A stretch of DNA of 32,663 nucleotides from a virus: IMG/VR virus record IMGVR_UViG_3300043786_000382, positions 1-32,663 of that record, one strand, 5' to 3'. Position 1 is the first letter of the stretch. Every line of letters begins with the position of its first letter. Below are positions 535 to 13,526 of the stretch, in pieces. A program made the position numbers and the translations under genes. The notes under the pieces were generated by a model that had not been told where the DNA came from, did not search any database, and saw nothing but the letters and a program-made list of their open reading frames with translations.

Positions 535-2319
535 TTATATTATGTTTAATCTATCAAGAAAATCTCTAACATCTTTAGGCATTTCCTTGTTGTCTAATTC
601 TACCATATCTCTCTGTTTCTCTGCAAGTCGTGCAGAAGTAGACCAAGTATGAATCTCAATCTCATGGTTAGAATCTTTAGGTGTATGTGATATTGCTCCA
701 AATACAGCGCCACATACAGCATCTGCTAGGTCCTTAGATTTTTTACGTGGATGATCAACCCTAGTATTTTTCATAATTTTGAGTTCTGACATCTCTTCCA
801 GTAATAAAGGAATTCTTGGTATTGCAACTCTTTCTTCATATACCATCATTGCTAAGTCTTCGTAGTGTTTTTTAGCAACAGAAACGGTATCGGTCTTTAT
901 GCCTACCGCCTTTAATTCCTGTTGAATATCAAATGACTGCCAACGGTCAAAAGAAACAACCCCAATATTAAATCCCTGTCTGCGTAAATTAATGATCCAT
1001 TGCTTTACTTCTGATAAATTAACTGGACCCTCCGCTTTTGGTTCCCACCAGGCAACTGCATCAACAATAACCATTGGTGCTACTTGCTCATAATCTTTAA
1101 TAACTTGAATGTTTACCCATTTATCTACGTGAGCAATTGCTACAGCACACTTGTCATGCTTTTGTGCAAGGTCAGCGTGAATATAGTATATCTTTTCTGG
1201 ATCAGGTTTAAATGATTCATCAAACCTTCTAAAATTATCAACTGGATTTCTTAATGTCATTACTTTTTCTAATTTTGCTTTATCTTTAAAAAATGCATCT
1301 GATGCAAATGTTGGCGTACAAGCAAAGCGCATCATGGCATCACCAAGGTCTGTATAGAATGCTAACTTAAAATCATCTATTTTTCTAGTAGGATTTACAT
1401 CCCACGTTGTTTTTTTAAGTGCTAAAACTTTTGGAACCTTGTAAGAAAGAATAGTATCTTCGTCCCATGAAATTTCAAATTGATTATTTGGATCATCGTG
1501 TGGCAAGTCTTCATTCATAATAAAAAGATGTTTCTTTTCAATAGTTTCTTTTTCTGCAATGACATCTTCATATCTTTTGGAAATAAAATCACCTTGGTAG
1601 CGGGGGAATGAAAGCAATACTACTTTTCCTAAATCTGGAAAACGAGAATCTACAGACCCACGAAATGCTTTATAAATATTTTCTGCAGTCTTACCTTGCT
1701 CATTACCAGTTCCAACTTCAGATGCAAAACCAGAAATTTCATCAAGAACTGCTAGTAATAAGTTTAAACCTTCATGCGACTCTCTTTCTGAATGTCCAGA
1801 ATAAACGGTAATTGATTTATCAAACTCAATGCTGTCAGCCTTTGCGTTATACTTTCCTGCAAACCATGGTGATTTTTCTATCTTAGTTTTAAATCCTTTA
1901 AAGAATACGTTCTTTGCTTGTTGTGCGTTGATGGCTACGTTTATGATATCAATTGCATCCCCGCTTGGTTTTCCGTAATACCTAGCAGGATCTTTAAGGC
2001 ATAGCAGTTTATATACTATGTATGCACAAGCGACCGTTGATACAAAGTCTTTTCCAGATCCCTTGCCAAGTTGCAAAATAATTTCATTTTTAGTATATTT
2101 ATCAAAATATTGAGCACCAGCAACTGATCCAAATATTTCTTGTAGTTCTTCTTTACGATAAATTTGACTCATTGCTTCTACAATTTCATACTGTATTAAA
2201 GACAATTGTGGTTGACCAAGATAATCAGCAGATTCAACAAATGTTTTTGCGTCTACTGGAATTTCATCAAATTGATTTTCTTTTAAAACTTCTAAGAAAT
2301 CATTAAACATCTTGGACAA
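535..2319 (-). CDS. terL: Terminase large subunit (ATPase-nuclease)
   Basis: This is the DNA packaging motor that cleaves concatemers and pumps DNA into proheads. The N-terminal ATPase has a P-loop GKGSGKD at residues 85-91 and a Walker B strand LLLAVLDE at 187-194 with the catalytic Glu following Asp. The C-terminal RNase H-like nuclease shows the expected acidic residues: Asp382 in YIHADLA, Asp458 in VVSFDRW, and the Asp530/Asp533 pair in SKDLADAV. The length of 594 residues is normal. Its ATG at 2319 lies inside the end of the small-subunit gene (17-base overlap), indicating translational coupling. The gene ends 16 bases before the secreted-protein gene. The family call is secure. Confidence 0.95.
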   Translation of the reverse strand: MSKMFNDFLEVLKENQFDEIPVDAKTFVESADYLGQPQLSLIQYEIVEAMSQIYRKEELQEIFGSVAGAQYFDKYTKNEIILQLGKGSGKDFVSTVACAYIVYKLLCLKDPARYYGKPSGDAIDIINVAINAQQAKNVFFKGFKTKIEKSPWFAGKYNAKADSIEFDKSITVYSGHSERESHEGLNLLLAVLDEISGFASEVGTGNEQGKTAENIYKAFRGSVDSRFPDLGKVVLLSFPRYQGDFISKRYEDVIAEKETIEKKHLFIMNEDLPHDDPNNQFEISWDEDTILSYKVPKVLALKKTTWDVNPTRKIDDFKLAFYTDLGDAMMRFACTPTFASDAFFKDKAKLEKVMTLRNPVDNFRRFDESFKPDPEKIYYIHADLAQKHDKCAVAIAHVDKWVNIQVIKDYEQVAPMVIVDAVAWWEPKAEGPVNLSEVKQWIINLRRQGFNIGVVSFDRWQSFDIQQELKAVGIKTDTVSVAKKHYEDLAMMVYEERVAIPRIPLLLEEMSELKIMKNTRVDHPRKKSKDLADAVCGAVFGAISHTPKDSNHEIEIHTWSTSARLAEKQRDMVELDNKEMPKDVRDFLDRLNII

Positions 2320-2836
2320 TAGTAATTACCTCTCCCTCTTTAGCAATTTGAGAAAGACGCTTCATAATTAAATCACGAACTTCTGGATGAGTTGAAGCAA
2401 TGTCTCTTAAGATTTCAACAAGAACCTCTTGTCGCCTTTCAATTTCAACCATTTCTTCTGCAAGTTCTTTGTTTTCTAAAAGCCCTGCTTTTTGTAACAT
2501 TTCAATTCTAGATTTTTCAATATCCATAACTAACTTAATTGCCTGAGTTTTTGCACTAAGATTATTAGTTAAACTTGATTCATCAATAACTTCATAAGCC
2601 TTCGTAATTAGTTTACTATAATGAGTATCAGCACCCGCAAGGGCTTCTTTAGCCCGTGCACGAATTGCATCATTTGCAGATGCCATAACCTTCCACTCAT
2701 TAATTAATGAAACAACACGAGTACGTGGAATATCTAACTCTTTAGAAATTTTTGTTGGATCTTGCCCTTTAAGGTATTCTGTAACTACCTTATTAACTTC
2801 ATCAAGATGCTCAATTAATTCTGATTCAGTTGACAT
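2303..2836 (-). CDS. terS: Terminase small subunit
   Basis: This 177-residue protein directly precedes and overlaps the large terminase gene. Residues about 25-50 form a helix-turn-helix (DPTKISKELDIPRTRVVSLI), followed by a long helical region (residues about 55-145) rich in Glu, Lys and Ala that could oligomerise, as in ring-forming small terminases that recognise the packaging site. The tail of the protein is short and ends near a hydrophobic segment. The ATG at 2836 overlaps the end of the upstream DUF1599-like gene by 11 bases. The call rests on position, HTH and helical architecture. No sequence-specific small-terminase signature exists that I can point to, so another DNA-binding role remains possible but is unlikely here. 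Confidence 0.82.
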   Translation of the reverse strand: MSTESELIEHLDEVNKVVTEYLKGQDPTKISKELDIPRTRVVSLINEWKVMASANDAIRARAKEALAGADTHYSKLITKAYEVIDESSLTNNLSAKTQAIKLVMDIEKSRIEMLQKAGLLENKELAEEMVEIERRQEVLVEILRDIASTHPEVRDLIMKRLSQIAKEGEVITIVQDV

Positions 2837-3192: not shown

Positions 3193-3855
3193 TTATTCTG
3201 AATCTATATCCCAAGAATTATCTTGCTTTACAGTAGAACCAACAGAAAAATAATCATAATTTTTTTCTATCATATTAAAACCATTTTTAATAAAAACTGA
3301 TGTACATGATTCTTCAACTTCATTAAATCTTAATCCCCAGAATGGAATTTCTAAATAACCTTTGTTGTACATAAACTTACATGTATTTTTATAGTCATTG
3401 CTATTATCTAATATTAAAATATTAGGAGATTCAATTTCAAAAATATTTTTAGTTAATAGAAGTCTGTTAGAAGCACAATCAACAAAAACAATTGTTTTGT
3501 CGTTAATTTCTATATCTGGAGTTTTATTTTCTAAATCATATTTTTGAATAAATCTATAGTCAACGTTTTCATGTAGTCCTGATTTAAAATTATTATAAAA
3601 ATTTATATCACTTTCAAATGAAATAACATTCTCTACTTTTTCAGCAAAATAATTTGTTGAGTGTCCCGAACCAAATTCAATTAAATCAAAGTCACTAAAA
3701 TCATAAGATTCAAACCAATCTAAAAATGGTAAAGACAGCATTGGCTTATTTTGATATAAACCTTTTGCTCTTAAAATTGTCATTATTGATGCTATTTTAA
3801 AATAATCGTAATCTAAAATTATACCGCCAGTGGTATAGAGTGGTTGTTCTTTCAT
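3193..3855 (-). CDS. Class I SAM-dependent methyltransferase-like protein
   Basis: This 220-residue protein has a Rossmann-type methyltransferase core. Motif I is EFGSGHS at residues 60-66, followed by a second acidic strand VISFESD at about 78-84 (SAM ribose contact), then VFVDCASNR and ILILDNSN strands near residues 125-150. The substrate cannot be read from the sequence. Small-molecule, protein and glycan methylation are all possible, and DNA-methyltransferase motifs such as DPPY are absent. Its start overlaps the stop of the 51-residue HTH gene in an ATGA junction, so the two are co-translated. It belongs to the accessory cassette with the halogenase. The gene is visibly richer in A+T (many Asn, Lys and Ile codons) than the flanking packaging genes, which suggests acquisition. 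Confidence 0.75.
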   Translation of the reverse strand: MKEQPLYTTGGIILDYDYFKIASIMTILRAKGLYQNKPMLSLPFLDWFESYDFSDFDLIEFGSGHSTNYFAEKVENVISFESDINFYNNFKSGLHENVDYRFIQKYDLENKTPDIEINDKTIVFVDCASNRLLLTKNIFEIESPNILILDNSNDYKNTCKFMYNKGYLEIPFWGLRFNEVEESCTSVFIKNGFNMIEKNYDYFSVGSTVKQDNSWDIDSE

Positions 3856-4018: not shown

Positions 4019-4654
4019 TCAACTTTTCTCATTAATATCATAATTAAACCTATCAGAATCTTCTAAAATCCATTTATCTTGATTTTCTACATCGTATTTT
4101 CTTTCATTAATTATTCTATCAATGACGTATTCTTTTTTGAGCGTAAAAGATGGTTCATAAACTCTAACTCTGTTGTTTGGTTGTATAGCAAAGTTACCGT
4201 CATCTCGTTGTATAACGTGCCCACATTTATGATCTGCTGGGCTTTCTGAGTAGCCATCATCTAACACATTTGTATCAGGGTTGTGCCAATCAAGGGTAAA
4301 TAAATATGTACCTTTAATAAAAGTTTTAGTTCTATCAATATATGACATTCTAAGATTGGTCAAGTTTTCAAATTTAGTTACAGAAACGTGATGACTAAAT
4401 GAATTCCACAATACTAGATTATGCAAGTCAATTTCTGGAACTCCTGGTTTTGTACAAAATGCAGATATCGGAAGTCTCCACCATAAGCCCCCATCTTCCA
4501 TCATAATATGAAATAATGGGCTTCTTGATTTAATACTTGAAACACCAAACACAACACATTCAAAATATTTATCGTGACTGTCTTGATGGTTTCTTAAATA
4601 ATTTCCCCTTACATAGCAGTTTATTGGTGGTATATTTGCGTTTAACTCTGGCAT
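4019..4654 (-). CDS. Unknown protein paired with the halogenase
   Basis: This 211-residue protein starts two bases before the halogenase stop region ends and is part of the same transcript. It begins MPELNANIPPINCYVRGNYL and contains conserved-looking aromatic and charged segments: FHIMMEDGGLWWRLPISAF at about 48-66, a TYLFTLDWHNP segment in the middle, and a HVIQRDDGNFAIQPNNRV segment further on. It has no signal peptide, no membrane segment and no recognisable catalytic motif. From memory, proteins with this MPELNANIPPI-type beginning occur in marine T4-like cyanophages, but I cannot verify that here. The close pairing suggests it could be a partner or target of the halogenase, or simply a common phage protein that travels with it. 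Function unknown. Confidence 0.75.
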   Translation of the reverse strand: MPELNANIPPINCYVRGNYLRNHQDSHDKYFECVVFGVSSIKSRSPLFHIMMEDGGLWWRLPISAFCTKPGVPEIDLHNLVLWNSFSHHVSVTKFENLTNLRMSYIDRTKTFIKGTYLFTLDWHNPDTNVLDDGYSESPADHKCGHVIQRDDGNFAIQPNNRVRVYEPSFTLKKEYVIDRIINERKYDVENQDKWILEDSDRFNYDINEKS

Positions 4655-4656
4655 AT

Positions 4657-6114
4657 TTAGTTTATATCTCTAATAATTTGAATTATTTTTTTATGTTCTA
4701 TTGATTTTGTTACTTCATTTTCAAGCCAAGCAGAAGCGGTTATGTTTTCTGTATATCTTTTTAGATTATCTGATAAAAAATTATATTCTTGTAAAATTGC
4801 ATCATTATCAAATAAATTAAGACCAGCCATAACAACAGCAAAGTTGGCTGCAGAAAACATAGAGTAGGTAGAATGATCAATAAAATCTTCAGCAACTGGT
4901 AGTTTTGTTTTCCATTTTTCTAAATTACATTTTAAAGACTCTGGAATTTCTACACTTAAAATATTTTTCCAAAATTCAGTGTCATTTCTTTTTGTTAAAT
5001 AATGCAACACAATAAAGTCTCTAATATTTTCTGTTATTTTTTCAAATGATTTATTATAATCTTTTATAACTTTTTCATCATAGTTTTGAATTTTATGCAT
5101 TAACAAAAAACTTTGTTGAATTGTTAATCCAATTGAAGTTGCTTCTAGTGGTTCAAAAAAACATCCGCTTAATCCCATTGCAACACAGTTTTTACTCCAG
5201 ACATTTTCTAAAGCGCCAGGATCAAATTCAAAAGTTTTTCCAATCTCTACTTCATATCCAAGTTCTTTTTCTACCTCTAATTTTGCTTCGTCAGCAGTTA
5301 TAAAGTTTTTGTCGTATATGTATCCATTTCCGTGACGGCCCCAAGTTGGTATCTTAAATCTCCAGCCTGCATTCATTGCTTTTGCCAGTGTCCAATAATT
5401 GTAATTGTCTTCATCTCCTGTTGGAAATGTAATTGCAGAATTTAATTTTAAATATTTGCTAAAAGATTTCCATTTAACGTCTAATTTATTCATTAAAATT
5501 CTATTAAATCCTGTTGCATCTATATAAAAATCACTTTTATATTTTGATTTTTCTCCAACTATAAAATCAATAAAACCTGTTTCGTCTAGTTCAACTTCAA
5601 CTATATCATCATCAACAACATTAATGCCTATTGCAATGGCTTTCTTTTTTAAAAAATCATTTAATTTAAAAGTATTAAAATGATACTGATTTGTTGGTGC
5701 CGAAGAGTCTATACTTATTGCACTTGGAGGAACTAAATTATTTACAATACTTTCTGAATAAAGATTTAAATTTTCAGGTATTTGTTTTCCATATACGTTA
5801 AGATATTGTCCAGACTTTGATGCGTATGGATGATAAACAGAATGCAAATATTTTTTATCTTTTATCCAATTGTCAAACATAACACCTATTTTAAATGTTG
5901 CATCGCACTCTAGAATAATTTCACTATCTTTAATTCCAACAAAGTTCATAAATTCTTTAAAATGTTCGGTTGATCCTTCTCCTACACCAACAATTCCAAT
6001 GTTTGAAGAATAAATTAAATTTACTTTTAAGTTACTACGATTTTTTAAAATAAGTGCAGAAATTAAACCAGCAGTTCCACCGCCAACAACTGTCAAACTT
6101 TTTACGTTTTTCAT
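4657..6114 (-). CDS. Flavin-dependent halogenase (tryptophan halogenase family)
   Basis: This 485-residue protein has the hallmarks of FADH2-dependent halogenases, which oxidise a halide and install it on an electron-rich, usually aromatic, substrate. The FAD dinucleotide-binding loop VVGGGTAG is at residues 9-16 and GVGEGSTE at 43-50. The lysine thought to carry or activate HOX is present as Lys75 in DATFKIG. GWRFKIP at 250-256 corresponds to the family's WxWxIP signature, with the second Trp replaced. EPLEATS at 321-327 corresponds to the EPLES active-site region, with Glu324 kept and the following Ser replaced by Ala. The C-terminal RDFIVLHYLTKR segment is also typical. The start ATG overlaps the resolvase stop (TAATG). 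A flavin reductase is not seen in the window, so the host would have to supply reduced FAD. The substrate and halide are unknown. Confidence 0.9.
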   Translation of the reverse strand: MKNVKSLTVVGGGTAGLISALILKNRSNLKVNLIYSSNIGIVGVGEGSTEHFKEFMNFVGIKDSEIILECDATFKIGVMFDNWIKDKKYLHSVYHPYASKSGQYLNVYGKQIPENLNLYSESIVNNLVPPSAISIDSSAPTNQYHFNTFKLNDFLKKKAIAIGINVVDDDIVEVELDETGFIDFIVGEKSKYKSDFYIDATGFNRILMNKLDVKWKSFSKYLKLNSAITFPTGDEDNYNYWTLAKAMNAGWRFKIPTWGRHGNGYIYDKNFITADEAKLEVEKELGYEVEIGKTFEFDPGALENVWSKNCVAMGLSGCFFEPLEATSIGLTIQQSFLLMHKIQNYDEKVIKDYNKSFEKITENIRDFIVLHYLTKRNDTEFWKNILSVEIPESLKCNLEKWKTKLPVAEDFIDHSTYSMFSAANFAVVMAGLNLFDNDAILQEYNFLSDNLKRYTENITASAWLENEVTKSIEHKKIIQIIRDIN

Positions 6115-6686
6115 TATTTATTTACTCCTATTGCTTTATCCCAGTTATTAATAGCCCAATGGCCGATACCACAAGCATCAGCAACGTCATTGTCGTTAAT
6201 AATTCTATCATAGTTGATTTCAATTAGTTTTATGGTCCTTTCTTTTCTTATTTGCCGTTCGTATGTTTTATACCAAGAAACTGATTTTCCAGGGTTTTTT
6301 GATCTAATCGTCAACTGTTCTTCTTTTGTTAGTTTTTTATTTCCTAAATAATTTTGCCAGGTTATTGGTGATACAGTCCCTATAACTTTTGTTCCAGTTA
6401 ATCCAGCAGCACCTAATAGTGCACCCTGAACTAATGCTAGATCTGCAGCAGTTTTAGGGCTGTTCATAAATACAGTATGTTCAATTATAATTGCTTCAAA
6501 TCCACCAAAATGTTCAAAGAATGCCCTTGTCTTAGAACAGGCGTCCATTACTTTTTCATAATTTGTTTTTCCATTAAAATTAATTTTACCAATACTACCT
6601 AGATTGTTATCATTAAAAATAGCAAAAGCAAGACTATTAGTGCTTGCATCAATCGCACAAATTGTTTTTGGGTCATTTTTGTTCAT
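6114..6686 (-). CDS. RuvC-like Holliday junction resolvase
   Basis: The 190-residue product has the RNase H-like fold signature of RuvC resolvases: Asp13 in CAIDAST, Glu69 in AIIIEHT, and the paired Asp167/Asp170 in NDVADACGIG. It is predicted to resolve branched DNA before packaging. The ATG at 6686 is preferred, with AAGGA about ten bases upstream. A TTG six bases earlier would add two residues and has tighter spacing, so it cannot be excluded. It overlaps the upstream zinc-finger gene by 14 bases and is followed by the halogenase cassette. A second branched-DNA nuclease candidate is encoded about 2 kb upstream, so roles may be divided between them. Confidence 0.85.
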   Translation of the reverse strand: MNKNDPKTICAIDASTNSLAFAIFNDNNLGSIGKINFNGKTNYEKVMDACSKTRAFFEHFGGFEAIIIEHTVFMNSPKTAADLALVQGALLGAAGLTGTKVIGTVSPITWQNYLGNKKLTKEEQLTIRSKNPGKSVSWYKTYERQIRKERTIKLIEINYDRIINDNDVADACGIGHWAINNWDKAIGVNK

Positions 6687-6963
6687 AGTCAAAAAATCCT
6701 TTTAGTTGTTTTAGCATCTTGTCTACTTCTTTTTTATTTATATTGCAATTAGAACAAAACCCAGAGTCATTGTATATTGAAAGTTGTTCTTTACAACCGC
6801 CAATACAAAGTCTTTTCTTGCCTATTCTTCTTTGTCTACGAGTTATTTGATACCTTTCGGCTATCTTTATTTTGGTGGCTTCTTCTCTACAAATATCTCC
6901 ACAATAAATTTGATAACTTACTTTTGGTGTAAACTGGGTCTCGCACCTTTCACATAGTTTCAC
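6673..6963 (-). CDS. Double zinc-finger protein of unknown function
   Basis: The 96-residue protein has two cysteine clusters: CERC with YCGDIC in the first 25 residues, and CIGGC with CSNC around residues 53-73. A basic helix (ITRRQRRIGKKRL) lies between them. The layout suggests two zinc-binding knuckles flanking a nucleic-acid-binding segment. The gene begins at GTG (6963): the ATG two bases earlier is followed at once by TGA, and no other usable start lies nearby. It lies between the Cas4-like nuclease (two-base gap) and the RuvC-like resolvase (overlap), so a role in DNA processing is plausible. It lacks an HNH signature, and its spacing does not match WhiB regulators. Confidence 0.7.
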   Translation of the reverse strand: MKLCERCETQFTPKVSYQIYCGDICREEATKIKIAERYQITRRQRRIGKKRLCIGGCKEQLSIYNDSGFCSNCNINKKEVDKMLKQLKGFFDYEQK

Positions 6964-8177: not shown

Positions 8178-8469
8178 TATATTCCTCTTCTGTTAATTGC
8201 TCTAGCATGTTCATTTCAATTATAGCAAGTCGTACCTTTGTATTGCCTTTTCCAAGAATTACAACAATTGCTGGAGACTTATCTCTACCTGCCTGAATAG
8301 AGTCAGTAACAGCCTTTGCCCATACATCTTTATTTAATGTAAAAGATTTGCTGGCTTCTTTAAAGTCAACAACAAATCCTCTCCAAGTAGCATCACCTTT
8401 CTGTGTATTTCTACCAGAATTTTTATGTTGCTTAGCGCCTATTCTTTTTGATTCATTTTTTTCTGTCAT
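8170..8469 (-). CDS. Small PD-(D/E)XK endonuclease, resolvase-like
   Basis: The 99-residue product reads as a minimal PD-(D/E)XK nuclease: Asp26 in QKGDATW and the Asp35-Phe-Lys37 triad in FVVDFKEASKS, with a preceding NSGRNTQKGD loop typical of archaeal/phage Holliday-junction-resolvase-like proteins and a following strand AIVVILGKG. It would cut branched or specific DNA structures. The ATG at 8469 makes an ATGA overlap with the methyltransferase stop and is preferred over the upstream in-frame Met, which would extend into that gene. The exact substrate (Holliday junction, flap or host DNA) is open. Confidence 0.72.
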   Translation of the reverse strand: MTEKNESKRIGAKQHKNSGRNTQKGDATWRGFVVDFKEASKSFTLNKDVWAKAVTDSIQAGRDKSPAIVVILGKGNTKVRLAIIEMNMLEQLTEEEYNV

Positions 8470-9044
8470 TTTTTTATCCATGCCCAAACATCATCATAAA
8501 CACTTATAATAATATCTTGATCTACATTTTTTTTAAAATTTAAAATTGCATCTTGTAAAATATTCCAACAGTGGCCAGAAATAATTCCATCTGTTTTTAT
8601 TTTTTTATACCAATTACTAATATCTTTATGTGTTATTTCTAAACTTTGTGTTGCATCATAAAAAAGTAAATCTATGGATTCTTTATCAAACATTGATAAG
8701 GCTAGGTCAGATTTTAAATTTATTAACTCTATTTTTTCTTGAAATCCACTAAATTTAATATTATGTTTTGCAAGAATTTTTAAATTATCAACTTCTTTTT
8801 TACCAAAATGATCATTATTTTCTACCCATGTTGTAGTATAAGGTATATACGGATCTACTGTATATATTTTTTTAATATTGGGGCAGTGCTGAGCAAGCAT
8901 ACATACTGTTGTACCAGCACCAGTCCCTACTTCTACAATAGTAGAATTTTTAGGTAAATATAAATTAATTAAATGAATTAAACTTTGTCCATAAATATTT
9001 TTATCTACAAAATTGTAAAATCCTGTATCAATTTCATTATTCAT
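8466..9044 (-). CDS. Class I SAM-dependent methyltransferase (Methyltransf_24-like)
   Basis: The 192-residue protein has SAM-binding motif I at residues 37-45 (VEVGTGAGT), a second strand ending in acidic YTVDPY, and a third strand DLLFYDAT, in the layout of the small Methyltransf_24 group often found near sugar or surface-polymer genes. The ATG at 9044 follows the zinc-ribbon stop by one base and has AAGAGA nine bases upstream. Longer in-frame starts would overlap that gene extensively. It is not similar by eye to the other methyltransferase at 3193-3855. It is markedly AT-rich and interrupts a run of DNA-metabolism genes, which points to a recently acquired accessory gene. Substrate unknown. 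Confidence 0.78.
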   Translation of the reverse strand: MNNEIDTGFYNFVDKNIYGQSLIHLINLYLPKNSTIVEVGTGAGTTVCMLAQHCPNIKKIYTVDPYIPYTTTWVENNDHFGKKEVDNLKILAKHNIKFSGFQEKIELINLKSDLALSMFDKESIDLLFYDATQSLEITHKDISNWYKKIKTDGIISGHCWNILQDAILNFKKNVDQDIIISVYDDVWAWIKK

Positions 9045-9045
9045 T

Positions 9046-9243
9046 TTAAATAATCTCTTTTCTTTGTTTTCGCTCATAATCTTTCTTTGTTGGAGGCAGT
9101 AGATTAACTTTTGAGATATGTTTTTGTGTACACATCCATGTTGCATTTCCAGTTTCTGGCCAATACCTTAAAGATGTTACAACTTCTTGGCAAGTTTTGC
9201 ATGGCCATTTTCCAGGATATACAGTAAAATTTTGCTCAGGCAT
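9046..9243 (-). CDS. Small zinc-ribbon-like protein
   Basis: This 65-residue protein contains CKTC at about residues 15-18 and a further Cys (WMC) near residue 37, followed by a His (QKH). Together these could bind one zinc ion. The sequence between them (YWPETGNATWMC) looks like a beta hairpin. The C-terminus is strongly basic and acidic (TKKDYERKQRKE). The ATG at 9243 overlaps the recA-like stop by eight bases. A TTG one codon earlier is possible. It may be a nucleic-acid-binding partner in the recombination operon. Function unknown. Confidence 0.65.
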   Translation of the reverse strand: MPEQNFTVYPGKWPCKTCQEVVTSLRYWPETGNATWMCTQKHISKVNLLPPTKKDYERKQRKEII

Positions 9244-10249
9244 CAATTATTTTTTTCTTAAGTTGTTCCTGTAAATCTAGGTCTTCTTTAACACGAGCAA
9301 TAAAACCATCACGACCCTGCACCTTTGTACCGTCGTCTAACTGATACCATGCACCAGTTCTATTAACCAGTCCCACTGATTCTGCGGTATCAACTAAATC
9401 TCCTATTGCATCAATACCAATATTGTCACCTCTAAAATAAAAATCATACTCACCAGATTGAAACCCTGGAGAGGTTTTAGAGAATTGGAGTTCCCAACGA
9501 ATTTTTCTACCAATTTTTTCTTCAATTAGTTTATCTCCCACCTTAATCTTTCCTTTAATTGCTTGATTTTCTGACTCAGAAGAAAACAACTTAATAACAC
9601 AAGATGAGTAAAACTTAGTAGCCTGACCACCAGAAGGCTGCTGACTTGTGTACATTGCATTAATATTATTTCTTGATTGTGAAATAAGAACAAGCAGTGT
9701 TGGTTTTACTTTGTTGTTAGCATAATTAAGCATTTTCCAAGCATTGCTAAAGTCTCTAGACTCTGCACCAATTTGTTTTGTATTTTCAAGTGCCTTCATT
9801 TCGTCTGAATCTTTTTCAAAATATATTGCAGGAAGCATTGATGTAATTGAATCAATAACAATAAGATCAACTCCAGCATTTATAAGTCCAACACCAACAT
9901 CTACCATGTCGCTAATAGTACGTGCTTGAGAATAAATTAATTTCGTTGGATCTACCCCCATTTGTTTAGCCCAGTCTTCTGAATATGACATTTCAGAATC
10001 AATCCATGCACAAACCTTGCCTTCTGCTTGCGCTAAAGCAATCATTTGTAAACACATAGATGACTTAGCCGATGATTTACTTCCCCATACAAGTACTTGT
10101 CTACCGTATGGCAGTCCACCGCCTAGTGCACGGTTTAATCCAAAACTTGGAGTTGGCTGATACTCAAAGTTAATTCCTTCTCCTGTACCAAGACGTTTTC
10201 TAATTCTTGGGTCTAACTGTGATAGTACATCTTGTATATTAACTGACAT
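9236..10249 (-). CDS. recA: RecA-like recombinase with a non-canonical P-loop
   Basis: This 337-residue RecA/UvsX-type ATPase should form filaments on single-stranded DNA and pair homologous strands. The Walker A is at residues 56-63 and reads GSKSSAKS, so Ala61 replaces the usual Gly just before the catalytic Lys62. The Walker B strand VDLIVIDSITS lies near residues 125-135. The loop region QSRNNINAMYTSQQPSGGQATKF corresponds to the conserved MAW/L2 area. The C-terminal domain is short. The ATG at 10249 overlaps the polymerase stop by 11 bases, which ties recombination to replication. The family call is firm; whether hydrolysis is altered by the Ala is unknown. Confidence 0.92.
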   Translation of the reverse strand: MSVNIQDVLSQLDPRIRKRLGTGEGINFEYQPTPSFGLNRALGGGLPYGRQVLVWGSKSSAKSSMCLQMIALAQAEGKVCAWIDSEMSYSEDWAKQMGVDPTKLIYSQARTISDMVDVGVGLINAGVDLIVIDSITSMLPAIYFEKDSDEMKALENTKQIGAESRDFSNAWKMLNYANNKVKPTLLVLISQSRNNINAMYTSQQPSGGQATKFYSSCVIKLFSSESENQAIKGKIKVGDKLIEEKIGRKIRWELQFSKTSPGFQSGEYDFYFRGDNIGIDAIGDLVDTAESVGLVNRTGAWYQLDDGTKVQGRDGFIARVKEDLDLQEQLKKKIIDA

Positions 10250-13200
10250 TTACATCCTCCATAATTACCGTGCCATCTTTGGTTTTACCAAAACTAAATT
10301 TATACGACTTGCCTTCTTCAATGTGCATGTATGCTTTTGGAAATGCAGTAGGAAATACTGTCACGGAGTGCAAATCTCTTGAAGTATCTGCCAAGGTTAA
10401 AGAAGCCATTTTCTTTCCAGCCTTCGTTATTCTTGATTTAAATGAAACAACGAACATTTCATCCTCTGTATAAGGCAATTGCTTATAACCCAAAAACTTA
10501 ACAAGTGCATTTGTTGATCCTTTTATTTCATCAACAGGAATTGCAGAAACAATCCTGTTATCATTAGCAAGAACCAAGTAAGTACGACCCGTTTCAATAG
10601 TTGTTGACTCTTCATCAAATATGCCAACACTACCAGTTTTGTCCAGAATTTCAACTCGTGACCAACCCTTTCCTCGTTTAATTGCTTTAACCATACCCAT
10701 TAAAATAAAAGATCCCTTTTCTTCAAAATCTTCAATTGATTGAATAAATGCATAATAGTGAGATGGAATAGAAATATTAAACTCTGGAAGATTTAAATAT
10801 TCGTAAAGATTTTCTTTAATATCTTCATCATTACGTGGATTATCAGAGAATGTTGCAGCACCAGTTAACCTTAGTGCATTTAAGGCTCTACTGTTTACTC
10901 CATTACCTTTTGTAAACGTAAACTCCTCAAGTTGTTTATAACTATTAAATGGTCTTGCATCAATATATTTTTGTGCAATGTTATTTGAAATAAACTTAAT
11001 ACCAGTTAATCCAAAACGAATTCCCTTGCCCTCAATTTTAAAATCTAAATCTGAATCATTAATATGTGGCAATTTAACTGATATACCCATACGCTTTGCT
11101 TCAATTAGATACTCTGTTCTACCATCTTTATCTTTTTCATTTTTGAGAAGGGCAAACATAAATTCAAGAGGATAGTAATACTTTAACCACGCCGTCCAAT
11201 ACGAGAGAGTAGAGTAAGCAACTGCGTGGCTCTTGTTAAACGAGTATCCCGCATGCTCTTCAAAGTCGTGCCAAAGTTCCAAGGCTTTATTAGGAGATAT
11301 GTACTTACTCGCCCCAGCAACAAACCTATCTTGAAATATATTGAACTCTTTTGCATCTTTTTTCTTTCCAATAATCTTACGAACCTTGTCAGCCTCTGCC
11401 ATTGTCATTCCACCAAGATAAACACAAGCCTGCATAACCTGCTCTTGATATAGGATACACCCATATGTATCATCTGTGAACTCTTTCATAATTTGGTGGG
11501 TATAGGAAACATTTTGCTTACCATGCTTACGAGCAATATAGTCTTTACCAATAGTATTCATAGCACCTGGACGAACTAAAGCATTTGATGCTGCTAACTC
11601 ATTAAAGTTTTTTACTCCCATTTTTATTAAAAGGTTTGTGTATGGAGTTGCTTCACACTGAAATACACCTTTTGTGTGTCCGTCTGAAAGCATTTCATAT
11701 ACCTTTGGATCTGCCATGTCAATAGATAAAAGGTCAATATCTTTATAATGATTTGTTTTAATCATATCAATACAGTCTTTAACTACACTTAAAGTTTTAA
11801 GACCTAATGCGTCAATTTTAATAAGACCAATTTTTTCAGCCTCTTCCATATCAACACCAACCACAGGAATGCGATCATCGGATCCAGGAGAAGAGCGAGT
11901 CTCCAATGGCGCATACCTAAATATTGGATTCTTACTAGTAACCACACCAGCAGCATGAATGCCAGTACCTCTAATACGACCACGTAACTGTTCTCCATAA
12001 ATCTCTACCTCTGGATATTTTTCTCTAAACGATAGTGTAGTTTTAGATGTGCAATATTCATCCCAAGTATCAACAAGTTTTAAAACCTTGTTAACATCTG
12101 TAAGTGGAATATCTAAGACTCTTGCAACATCTCGCACAACACCCTTATCTTTAAATTGAAGGAATGTTGCAATAGATGCGACGTGCCTATACTGTCTAAC
12201 TAGATAATCTTTTACTTCATCACGACGAGTATCTTGAATATCTGTATCAATATCAGGGAAGTCATTGCGTTCTGGATTAATAAAACGGAAAAACAAAAGT
12301 CCATGTTCTATTGGATCAATATCAGTAATTCCTAGAAGATAACAAACCAAAGAGCCAGCAGAAGATCCACGTCCTGGACCAACTAATATTCCTTCTTTCT
12401 TTGCCCAAGAAATCATATTTTGAACTACTAAGAAATATGGTGCAAACTTTTTATCTTTAATAATAAATAACTCTTCATCAAGCCTTTGTTCGTAAATGTC
12501 ATTACCAAGCCAGTTAGAGTTTAATCTTTTTTCTTCTAGAGCAGCAAAGGCTAGGTTTGCTAATTCTTGGTCTGGATTTTTATACTGGACTGGAAGTAAA
12601 TCAAGACCATCTTTAATGTCATAGTCTTCTACTGTCTCTGCTAGCAATAGTGTGTTTGAGTATATATCTTCTCTGTCAATACCCTGTTTTTCCATTGCTG
12701 CTTTAATTTCTTCATAAGAAAGTAAGTGAATGTCAAATTTGTTAAATGTTATCTGACGATCTTCTCCATAAAGATAGTCAAGGCGTTCCATCATAGAATC
12801 AATTTTTTTAGATTTTGCGTATGTGGTATCTTTTTGTACCTTAGCGTGAGTATTCATTAAAAGTTTAAACTCTTGAATATGCTTTTGTGATTCATCAGAG
12901 TGATGACAATCTGGCGTAACTACGACTCTAATATTAAACTCATCGGCAAGATCAATAAGGTATTTATTTATTTCTGGTGTGTTATGTGGCATAACCTCAA
13001 TGTAGTAGTCGCTACCAAAGTTATCTTTAAACCACCCAATGTGTTTTTTAGCAAGTGCAAATTCCTGATCTTCTAATGCTTTAACGATAACGCTGCTAGG
13101 ACAAGCAGACGTTACGATTATTCCTTCTTTATATTTTTGAAGAATTTCAAAATCAAACCTTGGCTTTTTAAAAAATCCATCTGTCCATGCTATTTCACTA

Positions 13201-13526
13201 ATCTTGTTAAGATTTTCTAAACCTTTTTGGTTCTTGGCTAGAAGGATAATATGATTATAAACAAGATCTTGTTGACCTGTTCTTTCAGACTTATCTCTTT
13301 TATCTGATATGTCTGCACACATATATCCTTCTAGACCAAGTATTGGCTTAATACCCTTTTCTTTTGCAGAACGGTAAAACTCTCTGTGACCAGAAAGTGA
13401 ACCGTGATCTGTAATTGCAAGAGCGTTCATACCCAACTTGCTAGCACGGTCTACATACTCTTGTGGAGTTGCTATGCCGTCAAATAGGGAGTAGTGAGTA
13501 TGAACATGTAAGCCTACGTAATTCAT
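10239..13526 (-). CDS. dnaE: DNA polymerase III alpha subunit (DnaE-type) with apparently intact PHP domain
   Basis: This 1095-residue family C replicative polymerase is slightly shorter than cellular DnaE. The N-terminal PHP domain keeps the metal-ligand pattern: His7, His9, Asp16, His41 (TDHGS), Glu66, His92, Cys142, Asp206 and His208. The palm has GRGSSAGSLV at 385-394 and catalytic aspartates Asp425 and Asp427 in FPDIDTD, with the third Asp572 in IKIDALG. An HhH-containing middle region and a C-terminal OB domain (FILMGMVKAIKRGKGW) follow. It copies the phage genome. Because the PHP site looks complete, it may proofread by itself. No DnaQ-like gene is in the window. The ATG at 13526 follows the single-strand-binding-like gene by one base. 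Confidence 0.96.
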   Translation of the reverse strand: MNYVGLHVHTHYSLFDGIATPQEYVDRASKLGMNALAITDHGSLSGHREFYRSAKEKGIKPILGLEGYMCADISDKRDKSERTGQQDLVYNHIILLAKNQKGLENLNKISEIAWTDGFFKKPRFDFEILQKYKEGIIVTSACPSSVIVKALEDQEFALAKKHIGWFKDNFGSDYYIEVMPHNTPEINKYLIDLADEFNIRVVVTPDCHHSDESQKHIQEFKLLMNTHAKVQKDTTYAKSKKIDSMMERLDYLYGEDRQITFNKFDIHLLSYEEIKAAMEKQGIDREDIYSNTLLLAETVEDYDIKDGLDLLPVQYKNPDQELANLAFAALEEKRLNSNWLGNDIYEQRLDEELFIIKDKKFAPYFLVVQNMISWAKKEGILVGPGRGSSAGSLVCYLLGITDIDPIEHGLLFFRFINPERNDFPDIDTDIQDTRRDEVKDYLVRQYRHVASIATFLQFKDKGVVRDVARVLDIPLTDVNKVLKLVDTWDEYCTSKTTLSFREKYPEVEIYGEQLRGRIRGTGIHAAGVVTSKNPIFRYAPLETRSSPGSDDRIPVVGVDMEEAEKIGLIKIDALGLKTLSVVKDCIDMIKTNHYKDIDLLSIDMADPKVYEMLSDGHTKGVFQCEATPYTNLLIKMGVKNFNELAASNALVRPGAMNTIGKDYIARKHGKQNVSYTHQIMKEFTDDTYGCILYQEQVMQACVYLGGMTMAEADKVRKIIGKKKDAKEFNIFQDRFVAGASKYISPNKALELWHDFEEHAGYSFNKSHAVAYSTLSYWTAWLKYYYPLEFMFALLKNEKDKDGRTEYLIEAKRMGISVKLPHINDSDLDFKIEGKGIRFGLTGIKFISNNIAQKYIDARPFNSYKQLEEFTFTKGNGVNSRALNALRLTGAATFSDNPRNDEDIKENLYEYLNLPEFNISIPSHYYAFIQSIEDFEEKGSFILMGMVKAIKRGKGWSRVEILDKTGSVGIFDEESTTIETGRTYLVLANDNRIVSAIPVDEIKGSTNALVKFLGYKQLPYTEDEMFVVSFKSRITKAGKKMASLTLADTSRDLHSVTVFPTAFPKAYMHIEEGKSYKFSFGKTKDGTVIMEDVNVS

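Follow-up and report, generated by a model that had tools for sequence, protein, structure and literature searches.

Halogenase genes have been annotated in cyanophages for years (PMC2984593; PMC3037559), with a count of 20 carriers among 153 cyanophages (PMC10452541), and one phage enzyme, VirX1, is listed in a review as experimentally characterised (PMC8407142). As to the natural role of phage halogenases, a review (PMC2984593) reports for the cyanophage gene prnA only an earlier speculation about protection from antibiotics. Here, a further gene of this kind, referred to as HAL, whose product would be expected to put chlorine, bromine or iodine on a molecule, is described on a stretch of 32,663 bases (the window), which is a whole IMG/VR virus record and itself a genome fragment. 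HAL is a real and intact-looking gene that is more notable for its exchange among sister phages and for the genes that accompany its clade than for the residues of its active site. The account favoured here, with a probability of about one half, is that of an actinophage cargo halogenase that tailors a macromolecule or a surface glycan. Its two foundations, a halogenase fold and the status of exchangeable cargo, are very probably correct.

The open reading frame (ORF) belongs, as the original prediction had proposed for a phage genome, to the flavin-dependent halogenases. Over residues 7-434, the Pfam profile PF04820 (Trp_halogenase; cut-off 21 bits) scores 304 bits, and there is also a match to PHROG 2928 ("tryptophan halogenase"), with an E value of 3e-101. 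An AlphaFold2 model, calculated from a 45-row alignment that includes the window protein, has a mean pLDDT (predicted local distance difference test) of 93.3 and a pTM (predicted template modelling score) of 0.92. When the model was aligned to 1000 chains of solved structures, the 50 listed were all titled halogenase or brominase, with Z scores of 38-50 for 48 entries of the tryptophan halogenase type (50.1 for SttH, 48.0 for BrvH, 46.1 for PrnA and 38.5 for VirX1), followed by CndH and Bmp2 at about 31. A position outside the halogenases, which had been raised beforehand, is not what emerges, as HAL both aligns and folds with them.

The motifs that had been claimed for HAL can all be read in the ORF, namely the GGGTAG loop for binding of flavin adenine dinucleotide (FAD), Lys75, WRFKIP, and EPLEATS with Glu324 and Ala325. 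In the 45 aligned rows, Gly11, Gly13, Gly16, Lys75 and Glu324 are invariant (45/45) and Trp251 is nearly so. The lysine and glutamate of flavin-dependent halogenases lie about 4 Å apart. Judged from these residues and the modelled fold, HAL looks like an intact, plausibly working flavin-dependent halogenase.

Two departures from the family motifs, the alanine directly after Glu324 and the phenylalanine in WxWxIP, had been taken as peculiarities of HAL, but both turn out to be clade-wide. Alanine stands in all 45 rows at the position of Ser347, the residue after the catalytic glutamate in PrnA, and the second aromatic residue of WxWxIP is phenylalanine in 28 rows and tryptophan in 13, the other 4 having another residue or no match to the pattern. 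The pattern GEG[ST][ST]EH is found in 44 of the 45 rows, 38 of which had been pre-chosen for GEG[ST][ST] from 39 candidates (L020:2096-3676 was left out for its long tail). Among 253 fetched sequences of at least 380 amino acids, near-copies counted, alanine follows EPLE in 105/105 that bear GEG[ST][ST]EH, whereas the 61 phage sequences without this pattern have alanine in 36 cases, serine in 23, glycine in 1 and no match in 1. Both this pre-choice and the use of EPLEA[TS]S or GVGEG-type peptides as seeds in the scans of viral sequences and genomes bias the motif frequencies; each scan kept the best 80 matches (in the bacterial scan, the best 80 of 210).

Tryptophan binding in the family goes with the Trp1 and Trp4 motifs (PMC8269204). 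In pattern searches, both Trp1 (AT[IVF][PS]) and Trp4 are absent from HAL and from all 45 aligned rows; for Trp1 this is partly built in, because the GEG for which 38 rows were chosen rules it out, and for Trp4 the patterns are a rough test, which among three Trp1-bearing bacterial controls matches those from Streptomyces (L272, L273) and misses that of A. lwoffii (L275). The Trp4 patterns also have a single match in L108, which is a phage protein of a different type. Since HAL lacks both motifs, free tryptophan is an unlikely substrate.

The original prediction had noted that the window encodes no flavin reductase, and indeed PF01613, PF03358 and PF00175 find no match there. A search extended to related records gave the same outcome for these three families: PF01613 is absent from 16 records (the window and 15 related ones) and PF03358 and PF00175 from 10 (the window and 9 related ones), all of the records being fragments and other reductase families not having been searched. 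Given this absence, the reduced FAD for HAL is probably made by the host, whose flavin reductases can serve two-component halogenases. HAL would encode the halogenase component of such a system, in which the Rossmann site takes up free reduced FAD supplied by the host, the flavin reacts with oxygen and halide to yield hypohalous acid, and Lys75 and Glu324 guide the electrophilic halogen to a ring rich in electrons. This is the chemistry of PrnA and RebH, extended to HAL by way of the conserved residues.

Comparison with other phage halogenases places HAL among a large set of relatives. The earlier description of such genes as rare does not hold, as 66 of 50,697 records in a phage collection match HAL (RefSeq duplicates included) and a scan of viral sequences yields at least 581 related stretches. 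Fifty-five of the 66 records are named Synechococcus, Prochlorococcus or cyanophage; the others include Campylobacter and Pelagibacter phages and one Actinomycetia phage. The closest in this collection are the "tryptophan halogenases" of phages S-H38, S-SCSM2R and P-SSM2 (PrnA-like; AAX44594.1 and others), with 42-44% identity. These proteins share EPLEA[TS]S and GE[GS]STEH with HAL and differ from it in their cyanobacterial hosts and gene neighbours; to our knowledge, no activity has been established for them. A maximum-likelihood tree of the quick kind, with long branches flagged, was built from 118 rows, of which 89 represent phages, 25 (out of 60 representatives) cells and 4 plasmids. In it, these cyanophage proteins fall with HAL in a clade of 50 rows (Shimodaira-Hasegawa-like approximate likelihood ratio support 97), 47 of them from phages and 3 from contigs of metagenome-assembled or single-cell genomes. 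Among the cell rows, the five closest to HAL (L192-L196; 3 inside this clade and 2 just outside) appear phage-like when their ORFs are read.

The close tie to VirX1 that had been suggested is not borne out. VirX1, which corresponds to CPUG_00131 of phage Syn10 and was matched to structure 6qgm, is likewise a phage flavin-dependent halogenase with the same fold and with lysine and glutamate at the same motifs; however, it is only about 27% identical to HAL, carries EPLESTG and WVWNIP in place of EPLEATS and WRFKIP, and belongs to a separate 11-row phage clade (support 100). It is thereby ruled out as the nearest relative, and the clade of HAL offers dozens of sequences, unlike VirX1, as candidate halogenation catalysts. 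In the Syn10 record, the VirX1 gene (L006:4995-6587) is labelled as a hypothetical protein, and a neighbour of 507 amino acids carries the label tryptophan halogenase. Related phages (L107, L108, L111) carry a different halogenase type at other sites, and both types occur together in the record of L011.

The likeness to bacterial enzymes is one of fold rather than of sequence. PrnA, RebH, PyrH, Th-Hal and SttH share the fold and the catalytic residues (Z 41-50) and are 22-27% identical to HAL, which is without their Trp1 and Trp4 substrate motifs. The bacterial BrvH, Xcc4156 and Pseudoalteromonas L11 flavin-dependent halogenases are similarly close in fold (Z 48.0-49.6) and about 26% identical, and BrvH, like HAL, is described as being without Trp4 (PMC8269204). 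A Trp_halogenase-like gene has also been found in an actinobacteriophage from a lake, DSL-LC01 of Dishui Lake (OQ999401.1; PMC10611076). Its product, however, aligns to 55% of HAL with 27% identity, lies elsewhere in the tree, in a region of long branches, and is encoded beside genes annotated as collagen-like and glycosyltransferase; none of four motif patterns was found in it (L115:5251-6822), and it may have diverged or be inactive.

The genomic setting of HAL is that of an optional gene. HAL lies between a RuvC-like resolvase gene (ruvC) and the gene for a phrog_3704 protein (purMx), and the spacing (Table 1) is too tight to accommodate a separate promoter between the genes; HAL is probably transcribed together with its neighbours. 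Among 92 sister loci examined, 88 contain both flanks, and the slot between them is empty in 76 and filled in 12, the latter from 11 contigs (L008 and L029 lie on one); the loci had been fetched by HAL or by a flanking gene, and 12/88 is no population frequency. In 50 of the 76 empty loci, ruvC and purMx are separated by 2 nucleotides (nt). A further arrangement is seen in L014, where purMx is missing downstream of HAL.

One of the empty sisters is L036, a locus of 5.4 kb without HAL. In bins of 60 nt, it is 100% identical to the window over about 1.3 kb upstream, from cas4 to ruvC, and again downstream over about 1.9 kb, a stretch that starts about 420 nt inside purMx and reaches terS, while the bins around the absent HAL form a mosaic patch of 77-97%; identity breaks again in terL (98.6% at the protein level). 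Among sisters that do carry HAL, the alleles are 72-95% identical and sit on backbones of unrelated similarity. Synonymous difference from the window in L010 is 0.10 for HAL, 0.42 for ruvC and 0.74 for purMx, and in L017 it is 0.45 for HAL, 0.21 for ruvC, 0.24 for recA and 0.77 for purMx. In addition, HAL has a G+C content of 27.8%, whereas the four neighbours for which it was measured have 32-35%. The mosaics, the decoupling of HAL from its backbone and the low G+C content suggest that homologous recombination through the flanking genes leads to gains and losses of HAL and to swaps between its alleles. The gene is under purifying selection, with a ratio of nonsynonymous to synonymous substitution (dN/dS) of 0.19-0.28 in 6 allele comparisons, which is looser than in ruvC (0.08-0.18), terL (0.02-0.11) and purMx (0.02-0.05, from 5 estimates, 2 of 7 comparisons being saturated); cas4 is mostly at 0.06-0.14, although one comparison gives 0.30 and another 0.48.

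A functional partnership between HAL and purMx was considered and rejected, as the latter occurs in 114 phage records and in the 76 sister loci that are without HAL and is not specific. The names "ferredoxin" and "PurM" attached to phrog_3704 in databases are probably wrong, since no Pfam family is found at E 0.1.

A second place for cargo lies on the other side of purMx, before terS. The gap there exceeds 800 nt in 9 of 12 loci with HAL and in 2 of 75 without it (Fisher values 2e-8 by locus and 1e-4 by lineage, with relatedness ignored). The occupant in the window and L010 types is g3193, a relative of which is also found near a halogenase on L193. In L017, a scan identifies a Gly_transf_sug glycosyltransferase in this slot, and L018 and L019 read alike; in L069, which has no HAL, it is an FkbM-like protein below Pfam's cut-off.

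Different genes accompany the halogenases of other viruses. In 73 dereplicated viral loci with halogenases of the same type as HAL (fetched stretches of up to about 13 kb, with neighbours grouped by single linkage and one representative annotated for each family), the neighbour families include the PF13759 and PF13640 oxygenases (54 and 47 loci), DUF6445 (30), HAD phosphatase (21), a baseplate wedge or tail-fibre connector protein (17) and carbamoyltransferase (17). In a sample of 20 viral records, picked by length among those fetched, 59 of 88 matches to 2-oxoglutarate (2OG)-Fe(II) oxygenases have a halogenase within 2.5 kb, compared with 24.1 expected from circular shifts, and 72 of 88 have one within 5 kb, compared with 35.3 expected; none of 5000 shifts reached either value. 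Seventeen of these 20 long records contain 2-6 halogenase matches, some of which are pieces of one gene. Several halogenases, often close together and interspersed with 2OG-Fe(II) oxygenases, are seen in records G016-G034 (L118, L122, L123, L129, L151 and others).

Bacterial loci present another picture. In 75 of them (L197-L271, fetched partly by the EPLEA pattern), a TonB receptor family occurs in 29, DUF6445 in 16, a SapC family in 7 and the two oxygenase families in 1 and 3; DUF6445 alone, out of three families from phage neighbourhoods that were looked for in these loci, is widely common to both settings. Examples of DUF6445 near a halogenase are L256:7592-8293 in a bacterium and L132:4677-5414 in a phage. 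On a phage-like contig that had been binned as Verrucomicrobia, a gene of the sulfotransferase family lies near the halogenase (L196:4783-5556).

The methyltransferase and glycosyltransferase neighbours of HAL, together with the 2OG oxygenases and tail genes found elsewhere, suggest decoration of proteins or glycans. The substrate of HAL would then be part of a macromolecule, or a surface glycan or glycoconjugate, of the phage or the infected host rather than free tryptophan, and it would be co-modified by methyl- or glycosyltransferases in the phage group of the window and by 2OG-Fe(II) oxygenases in other viral members. This choice of target, which is read from the neighbouring genes, is put forward tentatively, as something close to an even call. 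Within the same account, HAL itself is a cargo ("moron") gene of what is probably a group of actinobacteriophages. A more specific and rather doubtful extension is that the virus-specific halogenase clade, the viral 2OG-Fe(II) oxygenases, DUF6445 and the methyl- and glycosyltransferases form a system for halogenation and hydroxylation of tail or baseplate proteins or of surface glycans, which alters receptor binding or recognition. If so, the exchangeable actinophage cassette would be one piece of a decoration system, and halogenated virions or infected-cell surfaces would be expected. The near-identical loci with and without HAL, along with the gene clusters of the clade, make the substrate question testable.

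Several observations weigh against a decoration role. The clustering of oxygenases is weaker at 1.5 kb, where 33 of 88 matches compare with 17.7 expected and 33 of 5000 shuffles are as high, and part of the 88 oxygenase matches counted are below Pfam's cut-off. PF13640, PF13759 and DUF6445 have no match in the window or in its five HAL-bearing sisters (6 records), so that a halogenase-2OG oxygenase pair was rejected for the window phage, and PF13640 is present in G013-G015, three related records that have nothing in the slot. The first ORF that looks tail-like by eye is about 12 kb away from HAL. The association with a second cargo gene spans few independent lineages (4 of 6 with HAL in the grouping used here); g3193 occurs without HAL in L036 and in L281, the latter found with g3193 as bait, which argues that the link is not a strict one; and in a further five loci without HAL the gap measures 686-716 nt and so falls just short of the threshold of 800 nt. 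Furthermore, 2OG oxygenases are numerous in cyanomyoviruses, have been described as scattered in S-SZBM1 and have been tied by others to DNA repair (PMC9146016), and prnA and the many 2OG oxygenases are listed as separate auxiliary genes of the same phages (PMC9146016; PMC10436341). Because these oxygenases are so common in cyanomyoviruses, their company with a halogenase does not by itself prove a joint job. A literature search, limited mostly to non-subscription papers, found no description of a halogenase cargo slot, nor of halogenase-oxygenase-tail clusters as a unit.

The strongest competitor holds that HAL halogenates a small host metabolite, such as an indole, phenol or pyrrole, to generate a toxin, signal or protectant during infection, and so would serve as an ordinary metabolic gene of the kind proposed for cyanophage PrnA. 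Well-characterised family members are known to act on small molecules or peptides. Metagenomic flavin-dependent halogenases without Trp4 have been tested on indole (PMC8269204), and the antibiotic protection once suggested for prnA (PMC2984593) belongs to the same line of thought. However, neither a biosynthetic gene cluster nor a reductase is seen near HAL, the Trp motifs are missing from it, and the multiple halogenase matches in most of the long viral records, often beside oxygenases, fit decoration of many sites better. A small-metabolite substrate is considered unlikely, if still a serious contender.

It is less probable still, and by a clear measure improbable, that HAL keeps the fold while acting as a flavin hydroxylase or other monooxygenase, or that it has lost halogenation, by way of Ala325 and the W-x-F-x-I-P form of its motif. 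The WxWxIP motif is thought to block monooxygenation, although it is absent or varied in some known flavin-dependent halogenases (PMC8407142), and EPLEATS coexists with an intact WxWxIP in L274, HTVC008M, L107 and L108. The uniform alanine after the catalytic glutamate would be in keeping with a changed reaction, but Lys75 and Glu324 are invariant, Trp251 is almost always retained, and the listed structural matches bear only halogenase or brominase titles. That HAL is a chance ORF, a contaminant or a decaying gene, as its low G+C content and its absence from most of the sister loci fetched might be taken to imply, is refuted by the full-length profile match, the dN/dS values and the recurrence of the same gene arrangement in contigs from different IMG samples.

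Table 1. Positions in the window of HAL, its motifs and the neighbouring genes named in the text.
Feature	Position	Strand	Remarks
Flavin-dependent halogenase family gene (HAL)	4657..6114	-	485 amino acids, ATG start, without internal stop
FAD-binding GxGxxG = GGGTAG, residues 11-16	6067..6084	-	Motif reading, alignment
GVGEGSTEH, residues 43-51, where the Trp1 motif would stand	5962..5988	-	Alignment
Lys75 (in CDATFK), catalytic by family homology	5890..5892	-	45/45 aligned rows
WRFKIP, residues 251-256, W-x-F-x-I-P form of WxWxIP	5347..5364	-	Motif search
FFEPLEATS, residues 319-327	5134..5160	-	EPLEA[TS] in 45/45 aligned rows
Glu324, catalytic by family homology	5143-5145	-	45/45 aligned rows
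Ala325, directly after Glu324	5140-5142	-	45/45 aligned rows
RuvC-like resolvase (ruvC), upstream edge of slot	6114..6692	-	Stop codon overlaps HAL start codon by one base
phrog_3704 protein (purMx), downstream edge of slot	4019..4654	-	2 nt after HAL
g3193, second cargo gene, purMx-terS slot	3193..3855	-	S-adenosylmethionine methyltransferase-like by reading; no Pfam family
phrog_9507, small conserved phage protein adjoining terL	2303..2836	-	Named terS by position only
Terminase large subunit (terL)	535..2319	-	Nearest Streptomyces phages, 54% over full length
Methyltransf_24 gene, other variable place, recA side	8466..9146	-	Pfam
DnaE-like DNA polymerase III alpha	10239..13526	-	Nearest Streptomyces phages, 55% over full length

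As for the phage itself, the relationships of its terminase and polymerase (Table 1) suggest that it is probably an actinobacteriophage. Of 15 related records, 5 contain a WhiB gene, and HAL is carried by two of these (G003, G006); WhiB is not present in the window. The nearest phage relatives of purMx, at 56%, are 023Pt_psg01 and Pelagibacter phages, which speaks against an actinobacterial assignment. Beside the terminase gene, at positions 3-518, the window encodes a small protein whose start reads like a signal peptide. A link between HAL and this secreted-looking gene was discarded, as identity to the window copy varies alike in loci with and without HAL; its sister alleles range from 44 to 100% identity.

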